A stretch of 64,000 nucleotides of DNA, taken from positions 101,123-165,122 of the forward strand of contig JAFLDS010000009.1 in assembly GCA_017302295.1 (NCBI GenBank), given 5' to 3'. The notes under the pieces were generated by a model. That model searched no databases. It was not told the origin of the DNA and saw nothing but the letters and a program-made list of their open reading frames with translations. This document shows positions 49,538-64,000 of this stretch, one piece after another (positions within the stretch are counted from its first letter, which is position 1; every line of letters starts with the position of its first letter). The translations under genes and the position numbers were made by a program. Source of the stretch: Thauera sp. (GTDB lineage Bacteria > Pseudomonadota > Gammaproteobacteria > Burkholderiales > Rhodocyclaceae).

Positions 49538-50654
49538 TTTTGGGGATATCGGCGTCTGCTGGCGGCTGGCGCGGGATCTGGCCGCCAGCCATCGCCTGCG
49601 CGTACGGCTCTGGGTCGATGACTGGCCCTCGTTCGCCCGTCTCTGCCCCCCTGCGGCTGCGGCCGATCCGGCGGAGGGCTTCGCGCATCTCGGGGTTGAA
49701 GCGAGGCTGTGGTGCAAGCCCTTTCCGCACGTCGAACCCGCCGACGTCGTGATCGAAGCCTTCGCCTGCGAGATTCCCGAATCACACCTGCAGGCGATGG
49801 CAGCGCGGGCGGTGAAACCGGTGTGGATCAACCTCGAGTACCTGTCCGCCGAGGACTGGGTGGGCGGCTGTCACCGCATGGCATCGCCGCATCCGCGCCT
49901 GCCGCTGGTCAAGCACTTCTACTTCCCGGGCTTCGATGCGACGACCGGCGGCCTGCTGCGCGAGGCCGGACTGCTCGCCGAGCGCGATGCCTTCCGCCAC
50001 GGCGGTCGAGCGCAGTGGTTGGCCGCGCGCGGGGGCGACGCGCTGCCGGCAGATGCCTTGCTCGTGTCCCTGTTCGCCTACGAGCAGCCCGACCTGCCGG
50101 CACTGCTGCGGGCCTGGGAGCGCGGCCCGCGCCCGGTGGTGGCCCTGGTGCCCGAAGGGCGGGTGCTGGGCGACGTTGCGCGGGCGCTGGGGCGCTTGGA
50201 CCTCACAGCCGGCGACCGCATCGAGACGGGGCGGCTCAGCGTCGTCGTGCTGCCTTTCTCCGACCAGCCCGGCTACGACCGGCTGCTCTGGGCCTGCGAC
50301 CTGAACTTTGTGCGCGGCGAGGACTCCTTCGTGCGCGCGCAATGGGCGGCCACGCCCTTCGTGTGGCAGATCTACCCGCAGCACGACCAGGACGGCGCGC
50401 ATCGCGACAAGCTCGAGGCCTTCCTCGCCCGCTACACCGCCGTGCTCGAGCCGCGGGCGGCGCAGGCGCTGCGGGATTTCTGGCTGGCGTGGAACGAGGA
50501 AGCGGGGCTCGCCGAATACTGGCCGGCGTTTGCCGCGAACCTGCCGGCGCTCGCCGAGCACGCGGTGCGCTGGTGCGAGGAGCTCACCGCCCAGCCGGAT
50601 CTTGCGACCGGCTTGACAAAATTCTGTTTCGACATTCTCGCTGCGCCGCGGTAG
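49476..50654 (+). CDS. earP: EF-P arginine rhamnosyltransferase EarP
   Basis: 392 residues from the ATG at 49476. EarP uses dTDP-rhamnose to rhamnosylate Arg32 of EF-P, relieving ribosome stalling at polyproline. Signature segments include [20 protein letters not shown] (with the catalytic Asp region), [34 protein letters not shown] and [17 protein letters not shown]. It stands just upstream of efp, its substrate. The longer frame to 49284 is not supported; it lies in the DnaA-box region. Confidence 0.94.
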
Positions 50655-50657
50655 AAT
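50628..50657 (+). promoter_or_regulatory. Possible efp promoter within the earP 3' end
   Basis: TTCGAC (50628-50633), an 18-base spacer and TAGAAT (50652-50657). It lies about 65 bases before the efp ATG, in the last codons of earP. The pair is moderate in quality and would allow efp to be expressed in excess over earP, as the substrate needs. Confidence 0.4.
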
Positions 50658-50721
50658 CCCGCGCCTAAATTTTTCAACGACATGCGGCACTTGCCGCGTC
50701 GCTCATAATCCAGGAAACAGC

Positions 50722-51279
50722 ATGAAAACCGCTCAGGAACTCCGCTCGGGCAACGTCGTGATGGTCGGCAGCGACCCGCTGGTGGTGCAGAAGGCCGAAT
50801 ACAACAAGTCCGGCCGCAACGCTGCGGTCGTGAAGATGAAGTTCAAGAACCTGCTCACCGGCGCGCCGTCGGAATCGGTCTACAAGGCCGACGACAAGTT
50901 CGAAGTCGTGGTGCTCGACCACAAGGAAGTGACCTACTCCTACTTCGCCGACCCGATGTACGTGTTCATGGACGCCGAGTACGAGCAGTACGAAGTCGAA
51001 GCGGACAACATGACCGACGCGCTGAAGTACCTGGAAGACGGCCTGCAGTGCGAAGTCGTGTTCTACAACGGCAAGGCCATCTCGGTCGAACTGCCCAACA
51101 GCGTGGTGCGCGAAGTCGTCTACACCGAACCTGCCGTCAAGGGCGACACGTCGGGCAAGGTCATGAAGCCGGCCAAGATCAGCACCGGTTTCGAGCTGCC
51201 GGTGCCGGCTTTCGTCGAGATCGGCGACAAGATCGAAATCGACACCCGCACCGACGAGTACAAGAACCGCGTCAAGTAA
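50722..51279 (+). CDS. efp: Translation elongation factor P
   Basis: 185 residues. EF-P binds between the P and E sites and speeds peptide bond formation at proline stretches. Residue 32 is Arg in [14 protein letters not shown], the form modified by EarP with rhamnose, not the Lys form. The three OB/KOW-type domains are complete, ending in [16 protein letters not shown] at 50722 with AGGAAAC upstream. A palindromic terminator follows. Confidence 0.97.
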
Positions 51280-51296
51280 TCCGCGTTTCGATGTCT

Positions 51297-51327
51297 GGCG
51301 AAAGGCCCCGCGGGGCCTTTCGCCGTT
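51297..51327 (+). terminator. Terminator of efp
   Basis: A perfect 28-base palindrome GGCGAAAGGCCCCG plus its mirror (51297-51324), followed by GTTT. It begins 17 bases after the efp stop. The T-run is short but the stem is very strong; it may work in both directions. Confidence 0.75.
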
Positions 51328-51339
51328 TATGATCGGGCC

Positions 51340-52509
51340 ATGGACAGCGTGCGCCCGATCCTGGTGGTTCCGCTGCGGGGCTGGCTCCTCGCCCTGCTGC
51401 TGGCGATGCTGCTGCCCTGGCAGGCGATCGCGGCGCTTGCAGCGGCCCCGCCGCCCGGCGAGGTGCAGGTGGGAGCTCCCGTGCTGGAAGTCTTCGTGCG
51501 CGAAGGCTGCCCGCACTGCGCCGATGCCAAGGTTTTTCTGGCCGAGCTGGCGGGCGAGCGTCCCGATCTGCAGATTCGCCTGCGGCCGGTCGATCGTGAC
51601 CCCGCCGCGCGCGACGACCTGATCCGCATCAGCCGCGAAGCCAATGAGTGGCCGCCCGGCGTGCCGACTTTCGTGTTCAACGGCAAGGTGCTGGTCGGCT
51701 TCGACGATGCCGGGCACAGCGGCGTCGAGCTGCGCGCGCTGATCGGCGAAGGGCCGCGTTCAGCTGCAGCCGAGGTCGAGACCTCGCTGTTCGGCACACT
51801 CAGCGTCTCGCGCCTCGGCCTGCCCGCCTTCACCCTGGCGCTCGGCCTGCTCGACGGTTTCAATCCCTGTGCGATGTGGGTGCTGCTGTTCCTGCTGTCG
51901 CTGCTGGTGCGCCTGCACGACCGCCGGCGCATGGCGCTGGTGGCTGGCACCTTCGTCGCCGCGAGCGGCGCGGTGTATTACGCCTTCATGGCGGCGTGGC
52001 TGAACGTGTTCCTGCTGGTGGGCTTTTCCGAGGCCTTGCGCATCGGGCTGGGTGCGCTGGCGCTGCTGATCGGCGCGATCAACGTGAAGGACTTCTTCGC
52101 CTGGGGGCGTGGCGTCTCGCTGTCGATTCCCGATGCGGCCAAGTCGGGGTTGTATGCGCGCATCCGCGCGGTGCTCAATGCGGAGGCGCTTCCCGCCGCC
52201 CTGGTCGGCGTGGCGGCGCTGGCCGTGGTGGTGAATTTCGTCGAGCTGCTGTGCACCGCGGGCTTTCCGGCGATCTACACCGCAGTGCTCGCGCAGCAGG
52301 GGCTGTCGGCCGCCGCGCATTACGCCTACCTGGGGCTCTACATCCTTGGCTATATCGCCGACGACACGCTGATGGTGGCCACCGCCGTGATCGCGCTCGG
52401 CAGCGGCAAGCTCACCGAGCGCGCAGGCCGTGTGCTCAAGCTCGCGGGCGGCGCGGTCATGCTCGCACTCGGTGGCGTGCTGCTGTTGCGTCCGGACTGG
52501 CTCGTCTGA
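51340..52509 (+). CDS. Glutaredoxin-like / CcdA-like membrane fusion protein
   Basis: 389 residues. After a signal helix (residues about 13-35) comes a thioredoxin-fold domain with the redox motif EGCPHCADAKVFL and PPGVPTFVFNGKVLVGF (cis-Pro loop). From about residue 155 six or more transmembrane helices follow with GLLDGFNPCAMWVLLF and VVNFVELLCTAGFPAIY, the two membrane Cys of CcdA/DsbD-type electron carriers. It would move reducing power across the membrane to the fused periplasmic domain. Physiological target unknown. Confidence 0.85.
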   Translation: MDSVRPILVVPLRGWLLALLLAMLLPWQAIAALAAAPPPGEVQVGAPVLEVFVREGCPHCADAKVFLAELAGERPDLQIRLRPVDRDPAARDDLIRISREANEWPPGVPTFVFNGKVLVGFDDAGHSGVELRALIGEGPRSAAAEVETSLFGTLSVSRLGLPAFTLALGLLDGFNPCAMWVLLFLLSLLVRLHDRRRMALVAGTFVAASGAVYYAFMAAWLNVFLLVGFSEALRIGLGALALLIGAINVKDFFAWGRGVSLSIPDAAKSGLYARIRAVLNAEALPAALVGVAALAVVVNFVELLCTAGFPAIYTAVLAQQGLSAAAHYAYLGLYILGYIADDTLMVATAVIALGSGKLTERAGRVLKLAGGAVMLALGGVLLLRPDWLV

Positions 52510-52521
52510 GCGCCCGCTGCC

Positions 52522-54198
52522 TCAGTCACTGCCCTGCCGCCACACCGCGGCGAAGGCTTTCACCTTGGTCCAGGTCGACAGGCGCTCGTCCGACACCGCG
52601 TCGATAAAGTCCGACAGCCTCTTCGACTTGACCATGGTGTACATCGTCAGCACGGTGGACACGATGAATACCGCGGCGAAATAGAACAGCCGCTCGCTCA
52701 TCGGCGATTCCGCCTCGGCGAGCAGGTTCATGCCCAGGAAGCCGGTGGTGATGGTGCCGATCAGGCCGAAGATCGTCACTACCGTCAGCCGCACCACGGT
52801 GTTGGCCTGGCGGCGCAGGCTGTCGGCGTCGAGGTAGCTGTTCATGTCGGCGGTGCGCTCCTTCACCTCGGCATACAGCGGGTCGATCTCGAGGTGGTCC
52901 ACCGTCATGCGGAACAGCGCGCGCGTCTGCGCCTGCTCGGCGATGTCGTGGAACCAGTAGCGGTGCGTGAAGCGCAGGAAGCCCTCGAAGCTGGCGCGGA
53001 TCGCGCGCTTGAAGCGCCGCACGCTCTCCGGGTCGGTGACGTGCAGCCGCTTCAGCGCCTCCACCAGGCGTTCGGAGAACATCAGCAGCGCCGCCTTCTG
53101 GAAATGCGCGATCAGGAACAGCAGGAACTGCTGATGGCGGAACTGCGCCAGCACGCCGCGATGGCGGTCGGTGAAGTAGGCCGACTTCGCATCGCCCACC
53201 ACTACCAGTGCATGGCCGCTGCACAGGTAGCGGGTGTTGGGCGCGGCCCCGGCGCTCGACCAGAAGCGGTCGTAGCAATAGCGGCGCTCGAAATCGGCCA
53301 GATGCGGTTCGCCATAGGGCAGGGCGTTGCCGCTGCCGTCGCGCACCGTCTCCGCATCGCGCCGCCCGGCGCCGGTCACCAGACCGAGGCGGATGAAGTC
53401 GTTGCGCGTCAGCGCCAGCGGATCGTCGAGGGCGAGGTAGGCCGTCAGCGGCATGCGGTGATACTCGATCTGACGGTAGCGCAGCGCGCCGGGCTCTTCC
53501 GAGTAGGCGCTCACCAGCGGCTGCATCAGCCAGGCCCAGTGCGACGCGATGCGCGGCGCCCGGTGGCGGCTCACATGCGCCATGAAGGCCTCGCGCTCGT
53601 GCGCATCGGTGCGCGCCAGCACCGTGCCATCGCGCCCGATCAGCTCCGACACGGCCAGGCTGTGCAGCGCGCGGCCGTGCTCATCCCAGCCCGACGGGTA
53701 GGCCCGGCCGATGCGGTACATCAGCTCCTGCACCTCGGATAATGGCAGGCCGCCGCCGGCAACCTCGACGTTGAGGATCACCACATCCACGTCGAAGAAG
53801 AAATACAGATGCACATGAACGACATCCAGCGTCACCGGCGTGTCGCCATCGCGGGCGGCGACCCTCAGCTTGGCGATGTCGCGGCGGCGGAACACCCGCA
53901 TCGCCGGCCCGGCGTCCGCCGCGCCGCCGTGCTGCGAGCGCCCCTCGCCGTACAGGAACTGCTGCACGTAAGGCAGGAAGGTCACGAACTCGTTGTAGTG
54001 GCGCTCCTGGAAGACGCTGCCCTCCACCTCCAGGTCGTGTTCCACCTCGCGCCACGGCGACGCCTCGCCCATGTCGCGCAACACCTGCCAGGGCCGCTGC
54101 TGCGGCCCTAACGCGCCCGTTGCGGTCAGCAAGCGCACTGGCCACAGCAGCGCGAGGCGGAAGTGCTGCACGACGGGCTCAGTCGTCGCTTCGGTCAT
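52522..54198 (-). CDS. CorA-like membrane protein with long cytoplasmic domain
   Basis: 558 residues starting MTEATTEPVVQHFRLALLWP at 54198; upstream in-frame Met at 54303 adds 35 residues of poor quality. A long soluble N-terminal part is followed by coiled helices and two C-terminal membrane helices. The first ends in TGFLGMNLLAE, which resembles the G-M-N signature of CorA cation channels. The soluble domain differs from standard CorA, so transport of Mg2+ is uncertain. Confidence 0.65.
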   Translation of the reverse strand: MTEATTEPVVQHFRLALLWPVRLLTATGALGPQQRPWQVLRDMGEASPWREVEHDLEVEGSVFQERHYNEFVTFLPYVQQFLYGEGRSQHGGAADAGPAMRVFRRRDIAKLRVAARDGDTPVTLDVVHVHLYFFFDVDVVILNVEVAGGGLPLSEVQELMYRIGRAYPSGWDEHGRALHSLAVSELIGRDGTVLARTDAHEREAFMAHVSRHRAPRIASHWAWLMQPLVSAYSEEPGALRYRQIEYHRMPLTAYLALDDPLALTRNDFIRLGLVTGAGRRDAETVRDGSGNALPYGEPHLADFERRYCYDRFWSSAGAAPNTRYLCSGHALVVVGDAKSAYFTDRHRGVLAQFRHQQFLLFLIAHFQKAALLMFSERLVEALKRLHVTDPESVRRFKRAIRASFEGFLRFTHRYWFHDIAEQAQTRALFRMTVDHLEIDPLYAEVKERTADMNSYLDADSLRRQANTVVRLTVVTIFGLIGTITTGFLGMNLLAEAESPMSERLFYFAAVFIVSTVLTMYTMVKSKRLSDFIDAVSDERLSTWTKVKAFAAVWRQGSD

Positions 54199-54333
54199 GG
54201 GGCTCGTCTCCGTCCTTGTTGTTCTTCGCGCGTGATGACGCGTGACAGGCGGAATCTTCCCGAAAGTGCGGGGCGTGTCCAGTGACGGGGTGCGCATGTG
54301 CATGGAGACCGTCTCGCCGGCGGGCCGTTACGG

Positions 54334-54406
54334 AATCGCGCCACGCAAATGGCGCGATTAAGTTAATCGCGCCATAATCGCGCCACAAAGTCGGTTAATC
54401 GCGCCA
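54334..54406. repeat. Five copies of AATCGCGCCA upstream of fic
   Basis: Four direct copies at 54334-54343, 54365-54374, 54376-54385 and 54397-54406, and one inverted copy at 54350-54359. The inverted copy and the third site make the palindrome TGGCGCGATTAA-G-TTAATCGCGCCA. The last copy ends nine bases before the fic ATG. The array must overlap the promoter and ribosome-binding region and looks like a multi-site operator for the N-terminal winged-helix domain of Fic or for another regulator. Confidence 0.85.
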
Positions 54407-54415
54407 CCTGCCCGT

Positions 54416-55777
54416 ATGCCATCCCCCCCCGACCAACTCCTCGGATTCCTTCGATCTGCTCCCGACGGTCTGTCGATCACCGACCTCCTGGAGCGCCGCC
54501 CCGGGCTTACCCGCCGCACCGTTCAGCGCTGGCTCAACGAACTGGTCGCGCAGGGACGGATCAACCCGCTGAGTGGCGGTCGATCGCGTCGCTATGTCCT
54601 GGCGGCCGAAGCCGTCGAGCCTACGACCGAGGCCAGGGATCGTTTTCCCGGGCACATCCCGCTGTCGGCCGACAGCCGCGACATCCTCGCGTATGTCGAT
54701 CAGCCACTCACTGCGCGCAAGCCCGTGGGCTACCAGCTCGAGTTCCTGGCCGCCTATCAGCCCAACCGGACCTGGTACTTGTCTGCGCCGCTGCGCCGCC
54801 AACTGCAAAAGATGGGCGATACCGGCCAGACACGACTGCCGGCCGGCACCTATGGCCGTGAAGTCCTTAACCGCCTGCTGATCGACCTGTCCTGGGCATC
54901 GAGCCATCTGGAAGGAAACACCTACAGCCGGCTCGACACCCGCGAGCTGATCGAGCATGGCCGCGTGGCACAGGGCAAGGCTGCGATCGAAACGCAGATG
55001 ATCCTCAACCACAAGGCGGCGATCGAACTGCTGGTGGAAAACGCCGACACCGCCGGTTTGAACCGCTTCACCTTGCTCAACCTGCACGCCGCCCTCTCCG
55101 AGAACCTCCTGCCCAACCCGGCCGACGAAGGCCGGCTGCGACAGCACGGCGTCGAGATCGGCAAGAGCGTCTATCGCCCGCTGGGCGTGCCGGCTCAGAT
55201 CGAAGAAAGTCTGGATCTCCTGCTCGACAAGGCGAACCGCATTCAGGATCCCTTTGAGCAATCCTTCTTCGTCATGGTGCACCTGCCCTACCTGCAGCCC
55301 TTTGCCGACGTCAATAAGCGGACCTCGCGACTGGCTGCAAACCTGCCGCTGATTCGTGCCAACCTGTGTCCGCTGACCTTTCTCGACGTCCCCGAGCAGG
55401 CCTACAGCCGTGCCGTGCTCGGCGTCTACGAACTCACCCGCATCGAACTGCTGCGTGACCTCTACGTCTGGGCCTACGAGCGCTCGACCCAGGAATACCT
55501 TGCCATCAAGCAGGACCTGACCGAACCCGATCCACTGCGCCTGGCTTGGCGAGAACTGATCAAGCAGTCGGTGCGCGAAGTGGTCCGCCAGCCCGAGCGC
55601 GCCCCGCTCGAAGTCATCGAAGCGTGTCTGGCAGGGCATGCGCTGGGTGAGGACAGGAACAGTGTCGAGTCACTGGTGATCGACGAACTGCGACGGCTGC
55701 ACGAAGGCGTGCTGGCACGTTACGGCCTGCGGCCTTCCGAGTTTGTTGAATGGCAGTCGAGACAGCGAGCCACATGA
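54416..55777 (+). CDS. Fic-family AMP/UMP transferase with N-terminal winged helix
   Basis: 453 residues. Residues about 5-60 form a winged-helix (LSITDLLERRPGLTRRTVQR). The Fic domain has the active-site loop HLPYLQPFADVNKRTSR with catalytic His289; it departs from H-P-F-x-x-G-N-G-R at the G-N-G-R end (D-V-N-K-R), a variant known in this large subgroup. An inhibitory helix motif SSHLEGN with Glu166 fits [S/T]-x-x-x-E-[G/N], so the enzyme is class II-like and self-inhibited. A C-terminal extension of about 120 residues follows. The operator array suggests autoregulation. Confidence 0.9.
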   Translation: MPSPPDQLLGFLRSAPDGLSITDLLERRPGLTRRTVQRWLNELVAQGRINPLSGGRSRRYVLAAEAVEPTTEARDRFPGHIPLSADSRDILAYVDQPLTARKPVGYQLEFLAAYQPNRTWYLSAPLRRQLQKMGDTGQTRLPAGTYGREVLNRLLIDLSWASSHLEGNTYSRLDTRELIEHGRVAQGKAAIETQMILNHKAAIELLVENADTAGLNRFTLLNLHAALSENLLPNPADEGRLRQHGVEIGKSVYRPLGVPAQIEESLDLLLDKANRIQDPFEQSFFVMVHLPYLQPFADVNKRTSRLAANLPLIRANLCPLTFLDVPEQAYSRAVLGVYELTRIELLRDLYVWAYERSTQEYLAIKQDLTEPDPLRLAWRELIKQSVREVVRQPERAPLEVIEACLAGHALGEDRNSVESLVIDELRRLHEGVLARYGLRPSEFVEWQSRQRAT

Positions 55778-55891
55778 TGGTCGGTGCCTTCGCGTCGCGC
55801 ATCGGCTGCACGGTATCGGATTTACCCCTTGAACGTTGCAAGTCAAGACTAGTCTGAGAAGCAGGGCTCACCACAGGATAAGAGGCCCATC

Positions 55892-56165
55892 ATGGCAACG
55901 ATCCCTCAAGATCGACGACACGCTGAAAAGTCGCGTTCAGCACCTGGCCGCACAGCGCCGCCGTTCGGCGCACTGGATCATGCTCGAAGCCATCCAGCAG
56001 TACGTCGAGCGCGAGGAAGCCCGCGAGCGCTTCACGCAGGAAGCCTTGGCATCGTGGGTTGCGTACACGGAAACGGGCAGTCATCTGACGGGCCAGGAAG
56101 TCCGTGCCTGGTTGAAAACCTGGGGCACTGATGAAGAAAGTGCGGTGCCAGCGTGCCACAAGTAA
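55892..56165 (+). pseudogene. Frameshifted RHH antitoxin
   Basis: From about 55905 the frame reads SLKIDDTLKSRVQHLAAQRR, then SAHWIMLEAIQQYVEREEAR and SHLTGQEVRAWLKTWGTDEE, a normal CopG/ParD-type antitoxin. The only suitable start, ATG at 55892 after a purine-rich stretch, reads MATIP and then falls out of frame; removing two bases from the expected A-T-C-C-C-x-C-T-C junction explains this. The homologous frame upstream has only a TTG (55836). So the antitoxin is probably not made, or is made poorly from a non-ATG codon. It overlaps the next fragment by 13 bases. Confidence 0.65.
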
Positions 56166-56820
56166 TCGTCACCGAGCGCGCGGCGGAAGGCTTGGAGCGC
56201 TGCCGACGCTTCCTGGGCGCGAAGGCTCCTGAAGCCGCCCGGCGGGCTGGACAGGCCATAGCGCGGCAACTTCTGTTGCTGGAGACGGCACCTGAGATTG
56301 GCCGACCGTTGCCCGAAACACCCGCGCTGTGCATCACCGTCGACGGGGTTGGTACGGTCGCCTTGCCGCTGCTGCCCCAGCAGGCGGCGGAACTGGCTGC
56401 GGTCGCCGAGCGGGCCCCCTATGGGCGTGGCCCGGACACCCTGGTCGATACCGAGGTGGCCTTTGCGGCCTTCTACGCCGACTGCTGGCACGAGGTCCGG
56501 CCCATCACCGCGGGCTGTCGCCTGGCGCTGGTCTACAACCTGGTCAGGTCAAGCCACGTCACCTGCCGCTGTCCGCACTGCTCCAGCTCGCCCACTTCCT
56601 GGCGGACCCGAAGCGCAAGCAGTGGGTGCTGAAGGCCGCCGAGGCGCAGCGCAGCCATGTCGAGGACTCCATCCGGCGCGATGCCTGTGATGTCGACACC
56701 GAGACCCTCCGCCACACCCGCCCGTACGAGCTGCGTTGTACCAAGAACCAGGCCAGCTACCAGCGCCGGGTCGAGCAGCGTGAACGAGATCTGCAGAATC
56801 ACGCACATCTGCTGGAATGA
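56153..56820 (+). pseudogene. Composite remnant: RelE/ParE N-terminus joined to a decayed 2OG-Fe(II) oxygenase
   Basis: From the GTG at 56153 the frame begins like a RelE toxin (VIVTERAAEGLERCRRFLGA, LLLETAPEIGRPLPE). It then changes abruptly to a segment of a large 2OG-Fe(II) oxygenase family (GRGPDTLVDTEV; FYADCWHEVRPITAGCRLAL). The oxygenase lacks its middle with the H-x-D motif, so at least one internal deletion occurred. Near 56550 the match moves to another frame and ends in CTKNQASYQRRVEQRERDLQ at 56819. Nothing functional remains; it records deletion between a toxin-antitoxin locus and an oxygenase gene. Confidence 0.6.
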
Positions 56821-56913
56821 GGTATCTACAAACTGGATCTTTATGGAGCAGGCGACACCGAAAGCGCCGTGCTCCCCCACCCACAACGCCGCACGCTGGC
56901 AGGACACGGACCC

Positions 56914-57537
56914 ATGGACAAACTCAGACTCACCTACTTCGACTTTTCCGGCGGACGCGCAGAGCCCGCACGCCTGGCCCTGCATATCGGCGGAATTCCC
57001 TTCGAGGACAACCGTTTTGCGTTCGGTGATTTCGGCGAGGTGCGCAAGACCACACCGCTGGGCCAGGTGCCGACGCTTCACGTCAACGACGTGCAGGTCA
57101 CCCAGAGCGACGCGATTACGCGCTATGCCGGAAAGCGGGCCGGGCTTTACCCCGAAGACGCCCTTCAGGCCTTGTTCTGCGACGAAGTGATGGGCGCGCT
57201 GGAAGACATCAACACAACGATCGGGGCGACCTTCGGCATGACCGGCGATGCGCTCAAGCACGCCCGCGAGGCCCTGGCGGCGGAAGTATTGCCGCGGTAT
57301 CTGCGATGGCTGCAGCACCAGCTCGAAGCCCACGGAGGCGAATTCTTTGCGGACCATCGCCTGACCGTTGCCGATCTCAAGGCCTTCGTCATCCTGCGCT
57401 GGCTTGGCTCCGGCAAGCTGGATCACATTCCAGCCGACCTGGTCGAGACCGTGGCGCCGAAGCTCGCGGCCTTCACCGACCGCATCGCCGGGATTCCCGC
57501 CATCGCCCAGTATTACGAGTCGCGCGGCGGGTCGTGA
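56914..57537 (+). CDS. Glutathione S-transferase
   Basis: 207 residues from MDKLRLTYFDFSGGRAEPAR at 56914. The Tyr at residue 8 fits the catalytic Tyr of sigma/mu/alpha-type GSTs; GRAEPARLALHIGGIPFEDN, TPLGQVPTLHVNDVQVTQSD (glutathione-binding cis-Pro and Ser-Asp) and LTVADLKAFVILRWLGSGKL follow. It conjugates or reduces using glutathione. Prokaryotic genes of this sigma-like type are often annotated as stress GSTs. Alone in its transcription unit. Confidence 0.88.
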   Translation: MDKLRLTYFDFSGGRAEPARLALHIGGIPFEDNRFAFGDFGEVRKTTPLGQVPTLHVNDVQVTQSDAITRYAGKRAGLYPEDALQALFCDEVMGALEDINTTIGATFGMTGDALKHAREALAAEVLPRYLRWLQHQLEAHGGEFFADHRLTVADLKAFVILRWLGSGKLDHIPADLVETVAPKLAAFTDRIAGIPAIAQYYESRGGS

Positions 57538-57965
57538 GCGGGATTGATTTCGCCGCCGATGCGCGGCCGGTATTGGCGGCGGACCGTGAGAACTCAATAG
57601 CCCGGCGCTGGCCCAAGTGCGCCGGCGCGTCACGCTTGGCGTTCGGGCACTTGGAGGTGTTCCGATTGGAATGCGTCCGGTAGGGGGCTGTCGTCTCGGT
57701 CGCTTCCGGCCTTCGCAGCCTTCAGGGCGGCCCCCGCCTGATCGCCACCGGCCGTTATGGGCACTCAGCCCGACCTCACACATTCGGCCAAAAGGAGTCG
57801 TTCGTCGGTCAAACCTATCGGGCCGGTTAGGCCCGGTAGCTGTAGCTCAGGTTCGGCGCTCCGATGTAGCTGGAGACGGAAAGCTGATGTTCATGAGTAA
57901 CCAACCGGCCTTGACTTGCTCTGGCATTTTTAGAAGGGGTGCTGCAGTCCGATGCAGCTGAAGCC
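57538..57965. other. 428-base gap, no gene seen
   Basis: Between the GST stop and the end of the large NTPase. GC declines from left to right. I see no start with family homology, no convincing terminator and no tRNA. It may contain the boundary of the accessory segment that carries the NTPase. Confidence 0.5.
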
Positions 57966-60900
57966 TCATCGGGCCTTCAGCATCTCAAGTTGGTCTTTGC
58001 TGGGCGCAAGGAACTCAGTCTTAGTGCCCAATGACCTTAGGATCCCTGCCTCCGTCGTGAAGGTGGTGGTGTGGTACAGGCTGCCACCGAACCCACCCGT
58101 AGAGACGCCCACGTCCTGGCCCGGATAAACGTTCTTCTCTCCGGCCAAGACCCATACGGGCTCTAGTCCAGCGCTGGCGAGCTTGCTCAAGAAGTAGTCG
58201 CGGGAGACCACTCCGGCTCCGGCTCCTCGCGTATGCAGCGAGGGGTCCTGCCACCGGAGAGAGCCGCCAGCGTCAACGTACTCCGGGGCCTTACCGCTGC
58301 GGAGGTGCAGGTCTAGCACCTTGATGACGCCTGACGAGGGAAGATAGAGCGAAAACCCGTCGTCGACCGAGTTGTCGTTGCCGTTGCCTTCAACGGTCAG
58401 TGATTCAACGATGCCAGCATACGGCGTTTTGATGCCAGCGCTGATGTTCTGTTCCAGCTCGATTTGCCGGGTGTCGCGCCACCCATGCTCTCCCAGGAAC
58501 GAGCCGACGGAGCCGCTTTCCCACAGGCGAGACGCGTCGCCGCGGTGCCTGCCGAGCAGTTCCTTTGCCAGCTGAGACCCGCTGCCTAGTACGGTGACCA
58601 GACAGCTTATGCGCGACCATGCATCTGCGTGGTTGCGCCTGCTCTGACCCGGCACCGTCCAGTGGCGAAAGCCGGACACCGTCAGCCATCGCTCGCCGTC
58701 GGGGCTGACCACCTCAATTTGACCGAGGTCGTTGCACAAGTCGCTCTCGACGCGCACCCATGCTAGGAGCAGGTCTGTATCTCCAGACGGCAGTCGGGGA
58801 GCAGACGGAGTCCACCATGTGACTGGCGTCGCCGCCCAGCGGGTTTCGAGGGTGCTTCGAACAAGGAGGGAGGGGTCCAAGTCCCGCTTCATGTCGCGAC
58901 CGCGAGGGCCTGGCTCGAACGCCCTTAGCTTGCCGTCGTCTTCCCACGAACACATTGCCAGGTTGTCGGTCATCCGCGCCGTCGCCTCAGCGAGCGCGAT
59001 GTACTGGTACTTCTTGCCGACGCGCTCTACCCGATGCTTGCCCATGCGGTCGTGGCTGATATGCCCACTCCCCTCGAAGTCATCGAAAAGCTCCTCGGTC
59101 CACCCGAGCTGGTGCGCGCGCTCGCAAATCCATCGCCTCACAGGGCCACGGGCGACCTCCGACGGGCGTCTGTTGTCGTCCCGCATGCGCGTTGACTCAA
59201 GAAGATGACGTTCCGCGAACTCGGTGTACTCCGTGCGTAGCTCCTCTGAAAGCGCGTCCTTGAAAGCTTGGTTGGCTTGCTCGATCTCGGCCCAGCGTTC
59301 GGACTCGCCGGAGATCTTCGTGGTGAGGGAAAAGTGCAGAGGCCGCTGGTGGTACTCGACCGTCAGCTGACGCAGCGCAAGGTAGGCTTCTTGCTGCTCG
59401 CGGTTTGCCTTGTCAAGCAATGCGTTTTGCCAGCGTTCGAAGAGCTCCTTGGTGGTGTTGCCGGCAAGGGAGCGCGGCACATTCACGATGTCATGCAACC
59501 AACTGCGCAGGGTGTAGTTGCCGAAGTCGCCGTGCTCGTTCGTGGACGAGCAAATCGCATCGCCATATCCCTTGCCTTGGTACTTCTTGAGTTCCTCTTC
59601 CGTTACAGGTTCCAGCGGCCACTCAGACTTGAACTTGGCCCTGCATGCGTCGAGGTCGACCTCCGCCGGCAACTGGCCTGCCGCCTGAGCGTAGAGTAGG
59701 ACACCGAAGGCATAGTCCCGGGCCATCAGGTTCAGCGGCGGCCGTCGGTCTTCTCCAAAGTAGTTCTTCCAGACCGAGACGGCGAGAACCCCGCAACGGG
59801 CACGGTCCGCGCATTGCATGGACGCGCCATAACAGGCAGCGAGGAGGCGCTCTGTGATGTACAGGTCGTCGACGTCGTTGAACTGGTCGACGAGGGCCGC
59901 AGCGAAACCCAGCTTGCAAGACAGCAGATTCACGAGTGCCTTGGTGGCGCGGTCGCGCACGGCACGGTTGCTGGTCGACAAGAACCATGTCAGCGTGACT
60001 GCGGCAAGCGAGAGGCGCTGTTCATCGACTTCGTTGGGATCAACCTCCCATGCCCAGTCGATGAGCGAGGCCACTGCGCCGCCCTCGGCTAAGTTATCGT
60101 GCGCCAGAAACACCGACCATGCCGCGTCTCTCTGCGGCATCAGACGCGGCCACAGGTCCTTGTGCAGCCAGTTGGCATTGAACTGGTTTTCGGGCTCGGT
60201 GCTCGCCAGCAGCATCAAGTCGTACTTCGAGCGGCCAGTGACCTCGCAGAGCTTTTCCACCCATCCAACCGTTCGGCTTGTGAACGCCGTTGGGCTCCGC
60301 CACGCCAGCGAACTCTCGAAAGCGTCGCAGAGTGACGGGTCGTCGATGGCATCCTTTGGCAGCACATCGAACAGCTCGAGGCCGAACTCCTCCGGCAGTT
60401 GCACCGCCAGGGCCTCAATGACGCCGGCAAATCGCCAGCTCTCGAACGGCTCAAAGTAGGCCGCCAGTGGTGCTCGTCGGAACGAGCCTTCGACGTCAGT
60501 TCGGTCAATCTGGCCGATGAGCCTTTGGGCACGCAGGTGGTCCGACAGCCGCTCGAAGGTGAACCTGATGACTTCTTTATGGCCCCCCCCTGGCTGCCAC
60601 TCGATGTCCTGGGTGAACACGCCCTCTGACAGGAACGCGGAAAAGAGACTGCGTTCCCTGTAGCTGCCCGAGTTGTGGATGCCTTCCAGCAGCTCTATGG
60701 TGTCCTCCATGGAAAGGCTTCCGCCGTCGCCATGGGTCGCGCAGACTTCCAGGAACTGCTCCAACGCCTTGCGCGGAATCTTCAACTCGGGGATGAGCTT
60801 CAGCTCCCTCTGGACCTTGTTTGTCACCGCCGTCAGGTAGAAGTCGAAGATGGCGGTGACGCCGTCCATGCCCTTTGGCAACTGCTTGAGGTTCTCAGTG

Positions 60901-62447
60901 TCGAGGTACTCGCAGCAGGTTCGAAGGAACAGTGGGTTCTCGAACTCCCTCGCCAGATTTGGAGAGCTCGGTCGCACGATGCCACGGGGATCGAGGTAGG
61001 CCTTTGCTGCGGCGCCGGCGTGGCCGGCAAAGCCGGGGTGCACAACGTGCTCAAGGCCCTCCAGGGGGAGGAAGTGGAAATACGTGCTGCGCACGGTCAG
61101 CACCAGCGCCAACCGAGGGAGTTTTTGAACCATCCGGATGAACCCCGGCAGGCGCGACTCCCAAAGTGCAATGCCCTGCCGCTCGTTGAGGGCGTCTATG
61201 GCTAGCACTGTCCGGCAGTCGGCGGCCTCTGCTGCAGCGTCGAGCGCGCCTAGGAAGTCTGCGGTTGTTATCTGGGACAGGTCCAGCTGGCCTCGGATTT
61301 GCTCCCAGGGGTCACCATCGGTAAGGCTTCCGCCGAGAATCAGAACAAAGGGGTGGCCTGCCTCAAGCAGCTTGTGGCCGAAGTCAGCAATAAGGTGCGA
61401 TTTTCCGATGCCGCCGGGACCAGAGATGACCAGCTCGCGCTTGTTCATGAGCTGCCAGCGCACGCTCGTAATCTCCTCGTTGACATGGTCCACCGCCGAA
61501 TAGAGGTCGAACAGATCCTTGCGGACGATGTAGCGGCTCTTCTCGGGGACCTTGTCCTCAACCTCGGTCAGCGCCTCGGAGATGCTGTCGACTGCTGTAG
61601 TCGCCAGGGTTGCCCAGCGCTCCAGTGGCACGGGCGCTTCCAAGGCCACGGGAGGGCCGGCAAGGTCTTGTAGCAGCGACTCGCAGGTTTGTCGTACTCG
61701 GTCGGCAGCAGACGATAGCTTTTCGCGCGACAACCTACCGACCGCGCCGTCCATCTTGTACGTAATCTCGGCTGCCCAGCTCGCTGGCACTGCTAGCAAT
61801 TCAGGGTTACGTGCCACTGCTTGCAAGGCCTGCTGGATGGGCAGCTCCACGTGGCTTTCGGGGCTGTAGCGCTCACCGAGGTTGTGGCGCTGCACGTCGA
61901 ACTTGTCGCGGAACCAGGCCGAGGTGAACCGGACGGTGTCGAACCAGTAGCGTGCACGTCCAGAGTAAGCCGAGTCGTCGCGCCCCAGTCGTTCGGCGAT
62001 GCTCGATGCGCTCCAGAGTTCGATTTCGATGGTGCGGCCCTTGGCGGCTGCGTCGTCGATGCTCTTCTCGCGCCACTTTTCGTAGCGCTGAACTTCGCTG
62101 GCCTTCTTGCCAGACCGGTTGTCACGCAGATCGATAGGCAAGCAAACGACAAATGCCTTCAACTGCGGATGGGAGCTGAGCGCACGCTGCAGCGAGTCGC
62201 TCAGGTTGTCTACTTGCCCGTCATCAAAACTGTTGATGAAGTACTTCGCTTGCCAGCCAACCTCGTGCCCGTCCGCGTAGGTCCGGTAGCACTCGAGGCC
62301 TTGGTCTGCCCCCGGACCTTTTCGGATGAACCGGGATCCCTTCGCCGGGTCCTCCAGGGCGGCCAGCTGACAGCAGAGCTCTTCGAAACCGCCGTTTTGC
62401 GTTCCGCGATGTTCCCGAATACGTTTGAAGTCCAAGGTCAATGCCAA
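57966..62447 (-). CDS. Large STAND-type NTPase with N-terminal PD-(D/E)XK-like nuclease (Avs-like)
   Basis: About 1493 residues. The start is taken as TTG at 62445-62447, five bases after GGGAGG (62453-62458); there is no better ATG, and residues upstream to 62699 look non-coding. N-terminal domain: NGGFEELCCQLA (Glu), GADQGLEC (Asp48) and VGWQAKYF (Gln-x-Lys68), the Mrr/Cap4-type nuclease pattern. STAND ATPase: Walker A SGPGGIGKS (343-350), Walker B TVLAIDALNE (413-422), sensor LVLTVRS (448-454). About 1000 further residues are helical, ending in a beta-rich C-terminal part. This is the architecture of Avs antiviral NTPases, in which the C-terminal half senses a phage protein and releases the nuclease. 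Subtype not assigned. Confidence 0.78.
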   Translation of the reverse strand: MALTLDFKRIREHRGTQNGGFEELCCQLAALEDPAKGSRFIRKGPGADQGLECYRTYADGHEVGWQAKYFINSFDDGQVDNLSDSLQRALSSHPQLKAFVVCLPIDLRDNRSGKKASEVQRYEKWREKSIDDAAAKGRTIEIELWSASSIAERLGRDDSAYSGRARYWFDTVRFTSAWFRDKFDVQRHNLGERYSPESHVELPIQQALQAVARNPELLAVPASWAAEITYKMDGAVGRLSREKLSSAADRVRQTCESLLQDLAGPPVALEAPVPLERWATLATTAVDSISEALTEVEDKVPEKSRYIVRKDLFDLYSAVDHVNEEITSVRWQLMNKRELVISGPGGIGKSHLIADFGHKLLEAGHPFVLILGGSLTDGDPWEQIRGQLDLSQITTADFLGALDAAAEAADCRTVLAIDALNERQGIALWESRLPGFIRMVQKLPRLALVLTVRSTYFHFLPLEGLEHVVHPGFAGHAGAAAKAYLDPRGIVRPSSPNLAREFENPLFLRTCCEYLDTENLKQLPKGMDGVTAIFDFYLTAVTNKVQRELKLIPELKIPRKALEQFLEVCATHGDGGSLSMEDTIELLEGIHNSGSYRERSLFSAFLSEGVFTQDIEWQPGGGHKEVIRFTFERLSDHLRAQRLIGQIDRTDVEGSFRRAPLAAYFEPFESWRFAGVIEALAVQLPEEFGLELFDVLPKDAIDDPSLCDAFESSLAWRSPTAFTSRTVGWVEKLCEVTGRSKYDLMLLASTEPENQFNANWLHKDLWPRLMPQRDAAWSVFLAHDNLAEGGAVASLIDWAWEVDPNEVDEQRLSLAAVTLTWFLSTSNRAVRDRATKALVNLLSCKLGFAAALVDQFNDVDDLYITERLLAACYGASMQCADRARCGVLAVSVWKNYFGEDRRPPLNLMARDYAFGVLLYAQAAGQLPAEVDLDACRAKFKSEWPLEPVTEEELKKYQGKGYGDAICSSTNEHGDFGNYTLRSWLHDIVNVPRSLAGNTTKELFERWQNALLDKANREQQEAYLALRQLTVEYHQRPLHFSLTTKISGESERWAEIEQANQAFKDALSEELRTEYTEFAERHLLESTRMRDDNRRPSEVARGPVRRWICERAHQLGWTEELFDDFEGSGHISHDRMGKHRVERVGKKYQYIALAEATARMTDNLAMCSWEDDGKLRAFEPGPRGRDMKRDLDPSLLVRSTLETRWAATPVTWWTPSAPRLPSGDTDLLLAWVRVESDLCNDLGQIEVVSPDGERWLTVSGFRHWTVPGQSRRNHADAWSRISCLVTVLGSGSQLAKELLGRHRGDASRLWESGSVGSFLGEHGWRDTRQIELEQNISAGIKTPYAGIVESLTVEGNGNDNSVDDGFSLYLPSSGVIKVLDLHLRSGKAPEYVDAGGSLRWQDPSLHTRGAGAGVVSRDYFLSKLASAGLEPVWVLAGEKNVYPGQDVGVSTGGFGGSLYHTTTFTTEAGILRSLGTKTEFLAPSKDQLEMLKAR

Positions 62448-62938
62448 CGCAGCCTCCCTATTTACATTTGGGCGCTGTCCTGGCGTTACCCGGAGCGCCC
62501 CTTCCCTGGCGCGAAAGTGTACAGGCGAGATTGAACTGCAAACTTCCCTGCATCTGCTACTACCACCGGCAGCAACCGCTGCACTCCGGTCATTCGGGCG
62601 AAAAACCCGAACGGCTGTTGCGGGTCGTCTGGAGACAGCCACACTCGACTCGCAGCGCCCCCGCACCGATCCGGGGGCTGGAAGTCTCAGCCCGGCCATC
62701 AGCCGTCACTGGTCACCCAATCCGGATAGCAGTCATCCCGGCGAGGCGGTATGCTAGCGGCCTGTATGCCAGATCGGTCGCATCGTCCCGCAAAGCTGTT
62801 GGCTGCCGCTTTTCCTGCCTTGTTATTCTGTGTTTAGCGTAATTTCTACCACTAAACAGTAACTTGTAGAACACGTAGGCGTCACAGATGCGCCTGCAGT
62901 ACATTGCCGGCATCAGCAGTCAACCCACGGAGGCCCAG
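62448..62938. other. 491-base divergent intergenic region
   Basis: It separates the leftward NTPase from a rightward membrane-protein gene and must contain both promoters. TGTTTAG (62832-62838) and CTAAACA (62853-62859) form a 7-bp inverted repeat in AT-rich sequence near the rightward gene. No gene seen. The AT content is clearly higher on the right half than in the core genome. Confidence 0.5.
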
Positions 62939-63307
62939 ATGGATTCGCAAACGCGAGAGAGCATGAAGAAGGAACTTCTGGAAGCTTCAGGCGACTTTGG
63001 TCGCGGCGTTGGCCTCGGGGTCTTTGCTGTGTTGGGGTTTGCAGGCACACTTGTTCCTGCGATTGATATCTTGATGAAGTCCGAGAACACTTGGTACTGG
63101 CCAATCGGGGTGTTCGCCGCCCTCAGCGGCTACGCTGGATACCGTGTGAATGCCAGTCGAAGGAAGAACTTGGAACAGAAGTTTGCGACCTGGGACGACG
63201 ACGGACTCAAGTTTGCCCACGATAAAGTGCGTGAGAAGAGAATTCTCAGCAAGATTGCGACATATCTTCTCATTGCGGTTGTTGTGCTTTACTTCGTTCT
63301 TCGCTGA
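62939..63307 (+). CDS. Small membrane protein of unknown function
   Basis: 122 residues from the ATG at 62939, with ACGGAGG at 62926-62932. Three membrane helices: GVGLGVFAVLGFAGTLVPAI, WPIGVFAALSGYAGYRV and a C-terminal IATYLLIAVVVLYFVLR; the loop between helices 2 and 3 is charged. No family recognised. Base composition is lower in GC than the core genome, so recent acquisition is likely. It diverges from the NTPase and could be a partner or an unrelated cargo gene. Confidence 0.65.
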   Translation: MDSQTRESMKKELLEASGDFGRGVGLGVFAVLGFAGTLVPAIDILMKSENTWYWPIGVFAALSGYAGYRVNASRRKNLEQKFATWDDDGLKFAHDKVREKRILSKIATYLLIAVVVLYFVLR

Positions 63308-63439
63308 TCAACCTGTTGCCCAGTGACGCCCCTCAAGAAAAAAAACGATAAGTAGTCGATATGCAATGAACTGTTCTTGAACCAAAAGCGGGCGCGCAGT
63401 ATTTCTTGAAAAACGATTGGGAGCGTCAGCTGCGATGAC

Positions 63440-63471
63440 GCCTAACTCTTCGCTCAGCTCAAACGTTAGGT
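63440..63471. other. Short attC-like recombination site
   Basis: GCCTAAC (63440-63446) fits the integron R'' box R-Y-Y-Y-A-A-C, and GTTAGGT (63465-63471) fits the R' box G-T-T-R-R-R-Y; they are inverted copies. The inner part TTCGCTCA and GCTCAAAC resembles L boxes, but the central stem is missing, so this 32-base site may be a collapsed attC. It ends three bases before the next start codon, as in integron cassettes. Confidence 0.55.
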
Positions 63472-63474
63472 GCT

Positions 63475-63885
63475 ATGAGCTTCTCAGACACTCTCGGCGT
63501 CATTGGAATTGTGCTCGCGGTGATCGGTCTCGTGTATGCCGTCTATCAAGCGCGCGAGAAGAAGAGGCTCGAAGAGTACGTTCGCTCGCAAGCCTGGTAC
63601 ATCTATTCGAAGGCGAATAACGTAACGGGTATCGCCCAGGCCGGCCTGGGCGCATACAAGCAGGCGCACGCTCAGAATTTGAACACGCAAGTCTTGGAAC
63701 TCATGGCCAAAACAGACGCGTTTGGGCAAGACCTGTTCAAAGAGACAATTCGCCAAATCCAGCTGGCCGAGCCCGAGTTCACGCACAGCCAAATCGATGT
63801 GTGGGTGTCTGACGGAAAACTGGACGAAGACCACGCTGCTCTCTTCAAAGCACTCTGTGTGTCGAGCACCGCACCCAACGATTAA
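63475..63885 (+). CDS. Integron-cassette-type protein with N-terminal membrane anchor
   Basis: 136 residues from the ATG at 63475, only three bases after the attC-like R' box, with no strong ribosome site of its own. One N-terminal helix (TLGVIGIVLAVIGLVYAVYQ) is followed by a soluble helical domain (ARLE-type basic helix, then IRQIQLAEPEFTHSQIDVWV). The stop lies inside the next attC-like site. This position, small size and lower GC fit a gene cassette cargo. Function not recognised. Confidence 0.7.
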   Translation: MSFSDTLGVIGIVLAVIGLVYAVYQAREKKRLEEYVRSQAWYIYSKANNVTGIAQAGLGAYKQAHAQNLNTQVLELMAKTDAFGQDLFKETIRQIQLAEPEFTHSQIDVWVSDGKLDEDHAALFKALCVSSTAPND

Positions 63886-63935
63886 GGTTAGATCGTGATC
63901 GCGAAGCGAGCCACGATCTGAACCGGTTGTTGAAC
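63873..63935. other. attC-like recombination site (63 bases)
   Basis: ACCCAAC (63873-63879, R'' box R-Y-Y-Y-A-A-C) and GTTGAAC (63929-63935, R' box G-T-T-R-R-R-Y) enclose an imperfect hairpin: GGTT-AGATCGTG pairs with CACGATCT-G-AACC, leaving one unpaired G, as typical for attC. The loop is ATCGCGAAGCGAGC. The upstream gene's stop TAA is inside it. The rest of the window (63936-64000) shows no gene. Confidence 0.55.
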
Positions 63936-64000
63936 AAGCCCGGTCCGTCTCCCTGGAAATAGCTTTCTGTTCCCGAGCCCGGGATCGGGCCGGTAGGTCC

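Follow-up and report, generated by a model that had tools for sequence, protein, structure and literature searches.

The window analysed here, a stretch of 64,000 nucleotides from Thauera sp., carries on its minus strand a gene, avs2, whose frame of 1493 residues runs without interruption in both the frame listing and the translation (Table 1). An earlier sequence-only reading had placed one large protein at exactly these positions and had picked out E22, D48, Q66-x-K68, GPGGIGKS and IDALNE, all of which stand in the translation at the residues it gave. In a full-length alignment of ten rows (A1; the partial loci L017, L019 and L023 were left out), E22, D48, Q66, K68, G343, K349, S350, D418 and E422 are invariant (10/10).

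Table 1. Features of the avs2 locus in window coordinates
Feature	Position	Strand	Basis
avs2	57966..62447	minus	1493 aa + stop; open frame and match to PADLOC PDLC02166 (residues 1-1492, 2879.3 bits)
TTG start codon	62445..62447	minus	Start position shared with 10 relatives; AGGGAGG just upstream (62453-62459)
N-terminal effector (putative), residues 1-170, Mrr/LmuA-type PD-(D/E)XK pattern	61938..62447	minus	Profile comparison, no structure
E22 codon, first acidic residue of presumed nuclease site	62382..62384	minus	E in 17/17 chosen domains
Codons 48-52 (D48-Q-G-L-E52), matching Mrr GDGGID	62292..62306	minus	Profile alignment and 17 domains
Codons 66-68, Q-A-K motif	62244..62252	minus	Q66 and K68 in 17/17 chosen domains
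Linker, residues 171-310, less conserved	61518..61937	minus	Mean pairwise identity 0.63, 9 close sequences
STAND ATPase core, residues 311-560 (edges approximate)	60768..61517	minus	Weak AAA/nSTAND matches; collinear with 9o4e
Walker A GPGGIGKS, residues 343-350	61398..61421	minus	Translation and full-length alignment
Walker B IDALNE, residues 417-422	61182..61199	minus	Translation and full-length alignment
C-terminal Avs2 sensor half, residues 561-1493	57969..60767	minus	Matches to 9o4e (to 1462), NF041813 (to 1444) and PDLC02166 (to 1492)
Inserted segment, ~4.9 kb, avs2 the sole large gene	57791..62698		Junction in sister genome G783
CGGCCA at both insert edges	57785-57790 and 62693-62698		Sequence inspection
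attC-like site GCCTAAC...GTTAGG	63440-63470		Just before a 136-residue frame

The mechanical frame of avs2 opens at 62699, 84 codons above the TTG that the sequence-only reading had taken as the start. Comparison with ten relatives bears this choice out: the codon at the aligned position is TTG in the window and in six of them, ATG in two and GTG in one, a GTG lies one codon above it in L021, and nine of the ten have an in-frame stop at most 40 codons upstream. The relative on an Azonexus plasmid (L024, 67% identical) has TTG at the conserved start as well; its annotated ATG lies 70 codons below (L024:10001-10213), and the annotated protein therefore lacks everything from E22 to K68, i.e. the whole presumed nuclease site. 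Such a miscalled start is a trap for the automatic annotation of genes that begin with TTG.

Judged by sequence comparison, the gene encodes a known type, Avs2 (AVAST type 2), of which it is an intact example and not a new kind. Six PADLOC models named Avs2 match the protein, and PDLC02166 fits it end to end (residues 1-1492 of 1493, profile positions 1-1495 of 1498, 2879.3 bits), ordinary sequence divergence being the only difference found. The NCBIfam model for Avs2, NF041813, matches residues 188-1444 (788.8 bits, E 1.2e-236), short of its curated equivalog cut-off of 1000 bits; as this is an NCBI naming threshold, membership is claimed for the broader PADLOC family and not for the NCBI equivalog. 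Three of the five relatives scanned also score below 1000 bits (L012, 795; L016, 762; the distant L003, 647), whereas L020, likewise distant (1301), and the NCBI-named Avs2 of Rhodothermus marinus (WP_144295528.1, 1424) pass the cut-off. The latter shares 29% identity with the window protein in a collinear alignment that begins at residue 3, and it carries the same N-terminal domain. With PDLC02166, L012 and L016 reach 2924 and 3148 bits. The window gene thus adds an intact member to Avs2, and the PDLC02166 subgroup, as far as the three proteins scored go (window, L012 and L016), lies beneath the NCBI naming threshold.

The solved structure 9o4e, also named Avs2, agrees with this placement: chain A aligns with residues 173-1448 of the window protein alone (E 1.2e-114) and, when a profile of ten family members is used, with residues 172-1462 (E 2.4e-236), a span that takes in the end of the linker, the STAND core and the sensor half. 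Because of this profile alignment we regard the C-terminal half as the known Avs2 sensor half. The sequence-only reading had proposed a possible new Avs subtype, reasoning that a C-terminal region so unfamiliar may sense something else. It is true that the C-terminal half draws no Pfam match at E 1 and that the NCBI Avs2 cut-off is missed, but the PADLOC Avs2 model fits from end to end and the sensor half matches 9o4e, which makes a new subtype with an unfamiliar sensor very improbable; apart from the reservation about the NCBI cut-off, the protein falls inside a named Avs subtype. Likeness to Avs4 is confined to one N-terminal stretch, as no Avs4 model matches over the full length and only residues 49-150 (NCBIfam NF041815) or 51-148 (PADLOC) are covered. 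One locus taken as a possible Avs4 by its length (L078) proved, by eye, to combine an Mrr-type N-terminus with a helicase-like remainder and was left out.

Over the whole gene, dN/dS is 0.12-0.29 against seven of eight relatives (L018 was saturated and not computable, and dS exceeds 1 for L016, L021 and L022), and avs2 is under purifying selection. Together with the end-to-end family match of 2879 bits, these values place the frame far beyond chance. They also bear on the idea that the window holds a decaying or inactive copy, which could appeal to a ParE-like frame ~1.3 kb away, whose C-terminal part is unmatched, and to the splitting of avs2 into two frames in the relative G584; yet the frame is intact, every motif residue checked is kept and the dN/dS values are low against all relatives for which they could be computed, so that we give decay hardly any credence.

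At its N-terminus the protein likely carries a nuclease-type effector; we accept this on the basis of profile matches to Mrr_cat, 8dgf, 4xqk and LmuA together with the motif residues, and the earlier description of an Avs-type STAND protein with such an effector is supported by this evidence and by the PADLOC Avs2 match. Seventeen diverse N-terminal domains, chosen by hand, all have E22, D48, G50, Q66 and K68; at position 52, 15 have E and 2 have D. The N-terminal alignment A3 leaves out L023, which has a stop in the stretch, and alignment A4 holds ten plasmid records hand-picked, about one per species, among the 60 listed of 61 matching. Compared with 15 Mrr_cat sequences (5 of 20 Mrr loci were left out owing to stops in the stretch), a profile of 16 of the 17 N-terminal domains gives an hhalign score of 31.3 over 53 columns with a probability of only 50%, while 32 controls (12 slices of the remaining protein and 20 column shuffles) score 7.6-17.1. 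In this alignment, E22 falls on the glutamate of the Mrr FE, D48 and E52 on GDGGID, and Q66-x-K68 on QAK. The Mrr-like motif of the sequence-only reading is thereby kept as regards Asp48, which is D in 17/17 domains and lies on the D of GDGG, and refined in that the GGID aspartate of Mrr nucleases corresponds to Glu52.

Searched against the PDB, the 17-row profile finds Avs4 (8dgf, E 7.4e-4; the D48 position is gapped) and LlaBIII (4xqk, E 8.9e-4), and three further matches (E 0.87-1.5) look like chance; in Pfam, residues 1-215 of the window protein match no family at E 1. The akin nuclease-type domain of Avs4 is also seen with NF041815 (E 1.3e-4, residues 49-150). A further likeness leads to Lamassu: the window's N-terminal domain picks up a Streptomyces LmuA at E 1e-6, and that protein, itself identified by PDLC03851 (E 1.2e-102), matches Avs2 models N-terminally (best E 5e-13). 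Unlike the Avs2 domain it is a separate protein of 305 residues, encoded next to LmuC and to a gene with a RecN annotation and not fused to a STAND sensor. The Streptomyces gene (L087:2956-3873), which has this N-terminal domain in common with Avs2, is annotated as a serine/threonine protein kinase. A domain common to Avs2, LmuA and, weakly, Avs4 illustrates the swapping of effectors between sensor systems. The N-terminal profiles of the window protein's family find no match in the first 163 residues of 9o4e; Avs2 proteins may therefore differ in their effectors, and that of the solved protein may be another one or one that has diverged strongly.

Behind the effector, all Pfam AAA and nSTAND matches to the STAND core stay under the Pfam cut-offs. 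Among nine close sequences, mean pairwise identity is 0.80 in the N-terminal domain and 0.79 in the STAND core, and within the sensor half residues 986-1107 show the lowest conservation of the seven regions compared (0.54).

Avs2 is a single-gene system. A search for a partner gene across the window and 12 loci yielded no conserved neighbour except one gene pair common to L018 and L024 and some antisense frames: the flanking frames held in common are avs2 itself, antisense or overlapping frames of the gene or its near flank, and that pair together with the frames antisense to it (frames of at least 70 aa within 8 kb, compared all against all, with some loci ending early at contig ends).

By analogy with studied Avs proteins, from which trigger, oligomerisation and DNA cutting are inferred here, the window's Avs2 would act alone in the infected cell. 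Its C-terminal sensor half would bind a phage protein that is conserved, with the large terminase subunit as the most likely candidate; the STAND ATPase core would then assemble the protein into an oligomer, which would switch on the N-terminal Mrr/LmuA-type PD-(D/E)XK nuclease, and the activated enzyme would cut phage and host DNA and thus abort the infection. We consider this reading, a solo Avs2 that couples phage-protein sensing through a STAND oligomer and an Mrr/LmuA-type nuclease to abortive infection, to be very probably correct, and nothing found here alters the picture of how Avs proteins act. The nuclease effectors of Avs1-Avs4 are reported to cut both phage and host genomes once the large terminase, the portal or Ksap1 has been recognised (PMC12931631), and C-terminal sensing, ATP-dependent trimerisation and activation of the N-terminal effector are reported for an Escherichia coli Avs2 (PMC12724215).

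The trigger is the part of the scheme for which an alternative carries some weight. A Klebsiella pneumoniae Avs2 is reported to bind terminase and, apparently, Ksap1 (PMC12724215), by which it is also triggered (PMC12931631, PMC12724215), and a plasmid with the lambda portal gene enters an avs2 deletion strain of Alcaligenes faecalis easily but not the wild type (PMC13141931). Since, according to that source, the A. faecalis protein responds to the lambda portal protein, terminase is not a certain trigger for the window's Avs2, and a portal or other phage protein is possible. An Avs2 by architecture whose subgroup sensor answers to such a protein instead of, or besides, the large terminase would fit the low conservation of residues 986-1107 and the scores of the window protein, L012 and L016 under the NCBI Avs2 cut-off; the sensor half nevertheless aligns along its length with 9o4e and the NCBI Avs2 model, and we hold this alternative to be unlikely, if a good deal less so than a new subtype. 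A narrower proposal, in which the PDLC02166 subgroup, with its fast-changing residues 986-1107, would sense a non-terminase phage protein and pair this sensor with an LmuA-shared effector that 9o4e would lack, appears somewhat less likely than this alternative. The large terminase is most likely the trigger.

The presence of avs2 is patchy, as a single-gene insert. A scan of genome contigs returned 12 loci, of which eight are full length (64-90% identity), two partial but close and two distant; the full-length ones come from records titled Rhodocyclaceae, Janthinobacterium, Comamonas, Rhodoferax, Pseudomonas, Undibacterium, Xanthomonas and Azotobacter. Counting the window's own genome, PDLC02166 finds a match (E <=0.001) in 5 of 369 genomes sampled from the class and in 9 of 399 from the order, three of the latter only at E 2e-4 to 9.5e-4 and more than 2000 bits being reached only in the window's genome and G584. 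In the genus, where 21 of the 29 genomes pass a completeness and contamination filter, only the window's own genome gives a match (1/29), in one copy. One of 14 control genomes matched (Haloferax volcanii). Among 72,556 plasmid records 61 match, and Burkholderia accounts for 38 of these; among phages a single record out of 50,697 does so, over 24% of the query, and in viral contigs none of the 27 stretches picked up was confirmed as an avs2 relative. In G584 (L025, L033), the close relative is split near its C-terminal end, giving two frames (1377 and 212 residues), and on the metagenome-assembled contig L019 avs2 matches in two separated pieces.

How the gene sits in its genome is best seen from the sister genome G783, which yielded no Avs2 in the genus search and in which the counterparts of window 57793 and 62693 lie next to each other, i.e. 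the insert is absent. The CGGCCA at both edges may be a target duplication or chance. DNA common to the window and L012 extends only from 57929 to 62595 (92.5%) and is thus limited to the gene with the DNA immediately around it. Parts of the left-hand flank can be found again elsewhere in the genus. The right-hand flank has no second copy in the window's genome other than one partial match of 78 bases; it was found in 2 of the 11 gst loci fetched from the genus, adjoining in G783 and lying ~3.8 kb from the gst match in G769. Between the gst match and the flank, G769 has two frames that match nothing in Pfam or PADLOC; beyond the flank comes a GmrSD restriction gene. In G771, gst is followed by an RT-Toprim defence-type reverse transcriptase, and the right-hand flank is absent from the 13 kb read. 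On these few genomes, the site downstream of gst (window 56869-57793 and 62693-62876; loci L046, L047 and L054) looks like a possible hotspot of the genus at which defence genes come and go.

The sequence-only reading had also described the surroundings as lower in GC and integron-like. The first holds only slightly inside the gene (0.62, compared with 0.64-0.68 across the four preceding 2-kb steps) and more clearly beyond its start (0.56 in 62001-64000). Of the second, one attC-like site remains (Table 1), found with a pattern that was written after the site had been seen and that has 0 matches in 100 shuffles; the genome has no integron integrase above the family cut-off of 265 bits, the best score being 78.7. 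An integron gene cassette was rejected as an account of avs2, the single attC-like site lying ~1 kb beyond the start of the gene and off the insert edges (one exact pattern was searched). Rfam gave nothing at gathering thresholds in 50000-64000.

Several further genes lie near avs2, here and in relatives. At window 55836-56632, a ribbon-helix-helix frame is followed by a ParE-like frame of which only residues 4-55 of 159 match ParE, as would fit a toxin-antitoxin pair that has decayed or become fused, and window 54416-55777 encodes a Fic-domain protein with weak likeness to PADLOC SoFic (E 8.8e-14). Beside the 90% identical Avs2 relative, L012:11792-13612 encodes a protein of 606 residues that joins an nSTAND_NTPase5 to a C-terminal RelA/SpoT domain, preceded by a 131-residue frame with no Pfam match; in PADLOC it has only a weak mad8 match (E 7e-4), and it is possibly a sensor with an alarmone-making effector. 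Near the Avs2 relatives of L018 and L024 (L018:12772-18647 and L024:14954-20880) lies a second large protein of 1477 and 1494 aa, respectively, which has an N-terminus resembling LmuA and is only weakly similar to Avs1b. Its partner, a protein of 480-481 residues, has no PADLOC match, and the two may, from their sequences, constitute an undescribed STAND-type defence pair.
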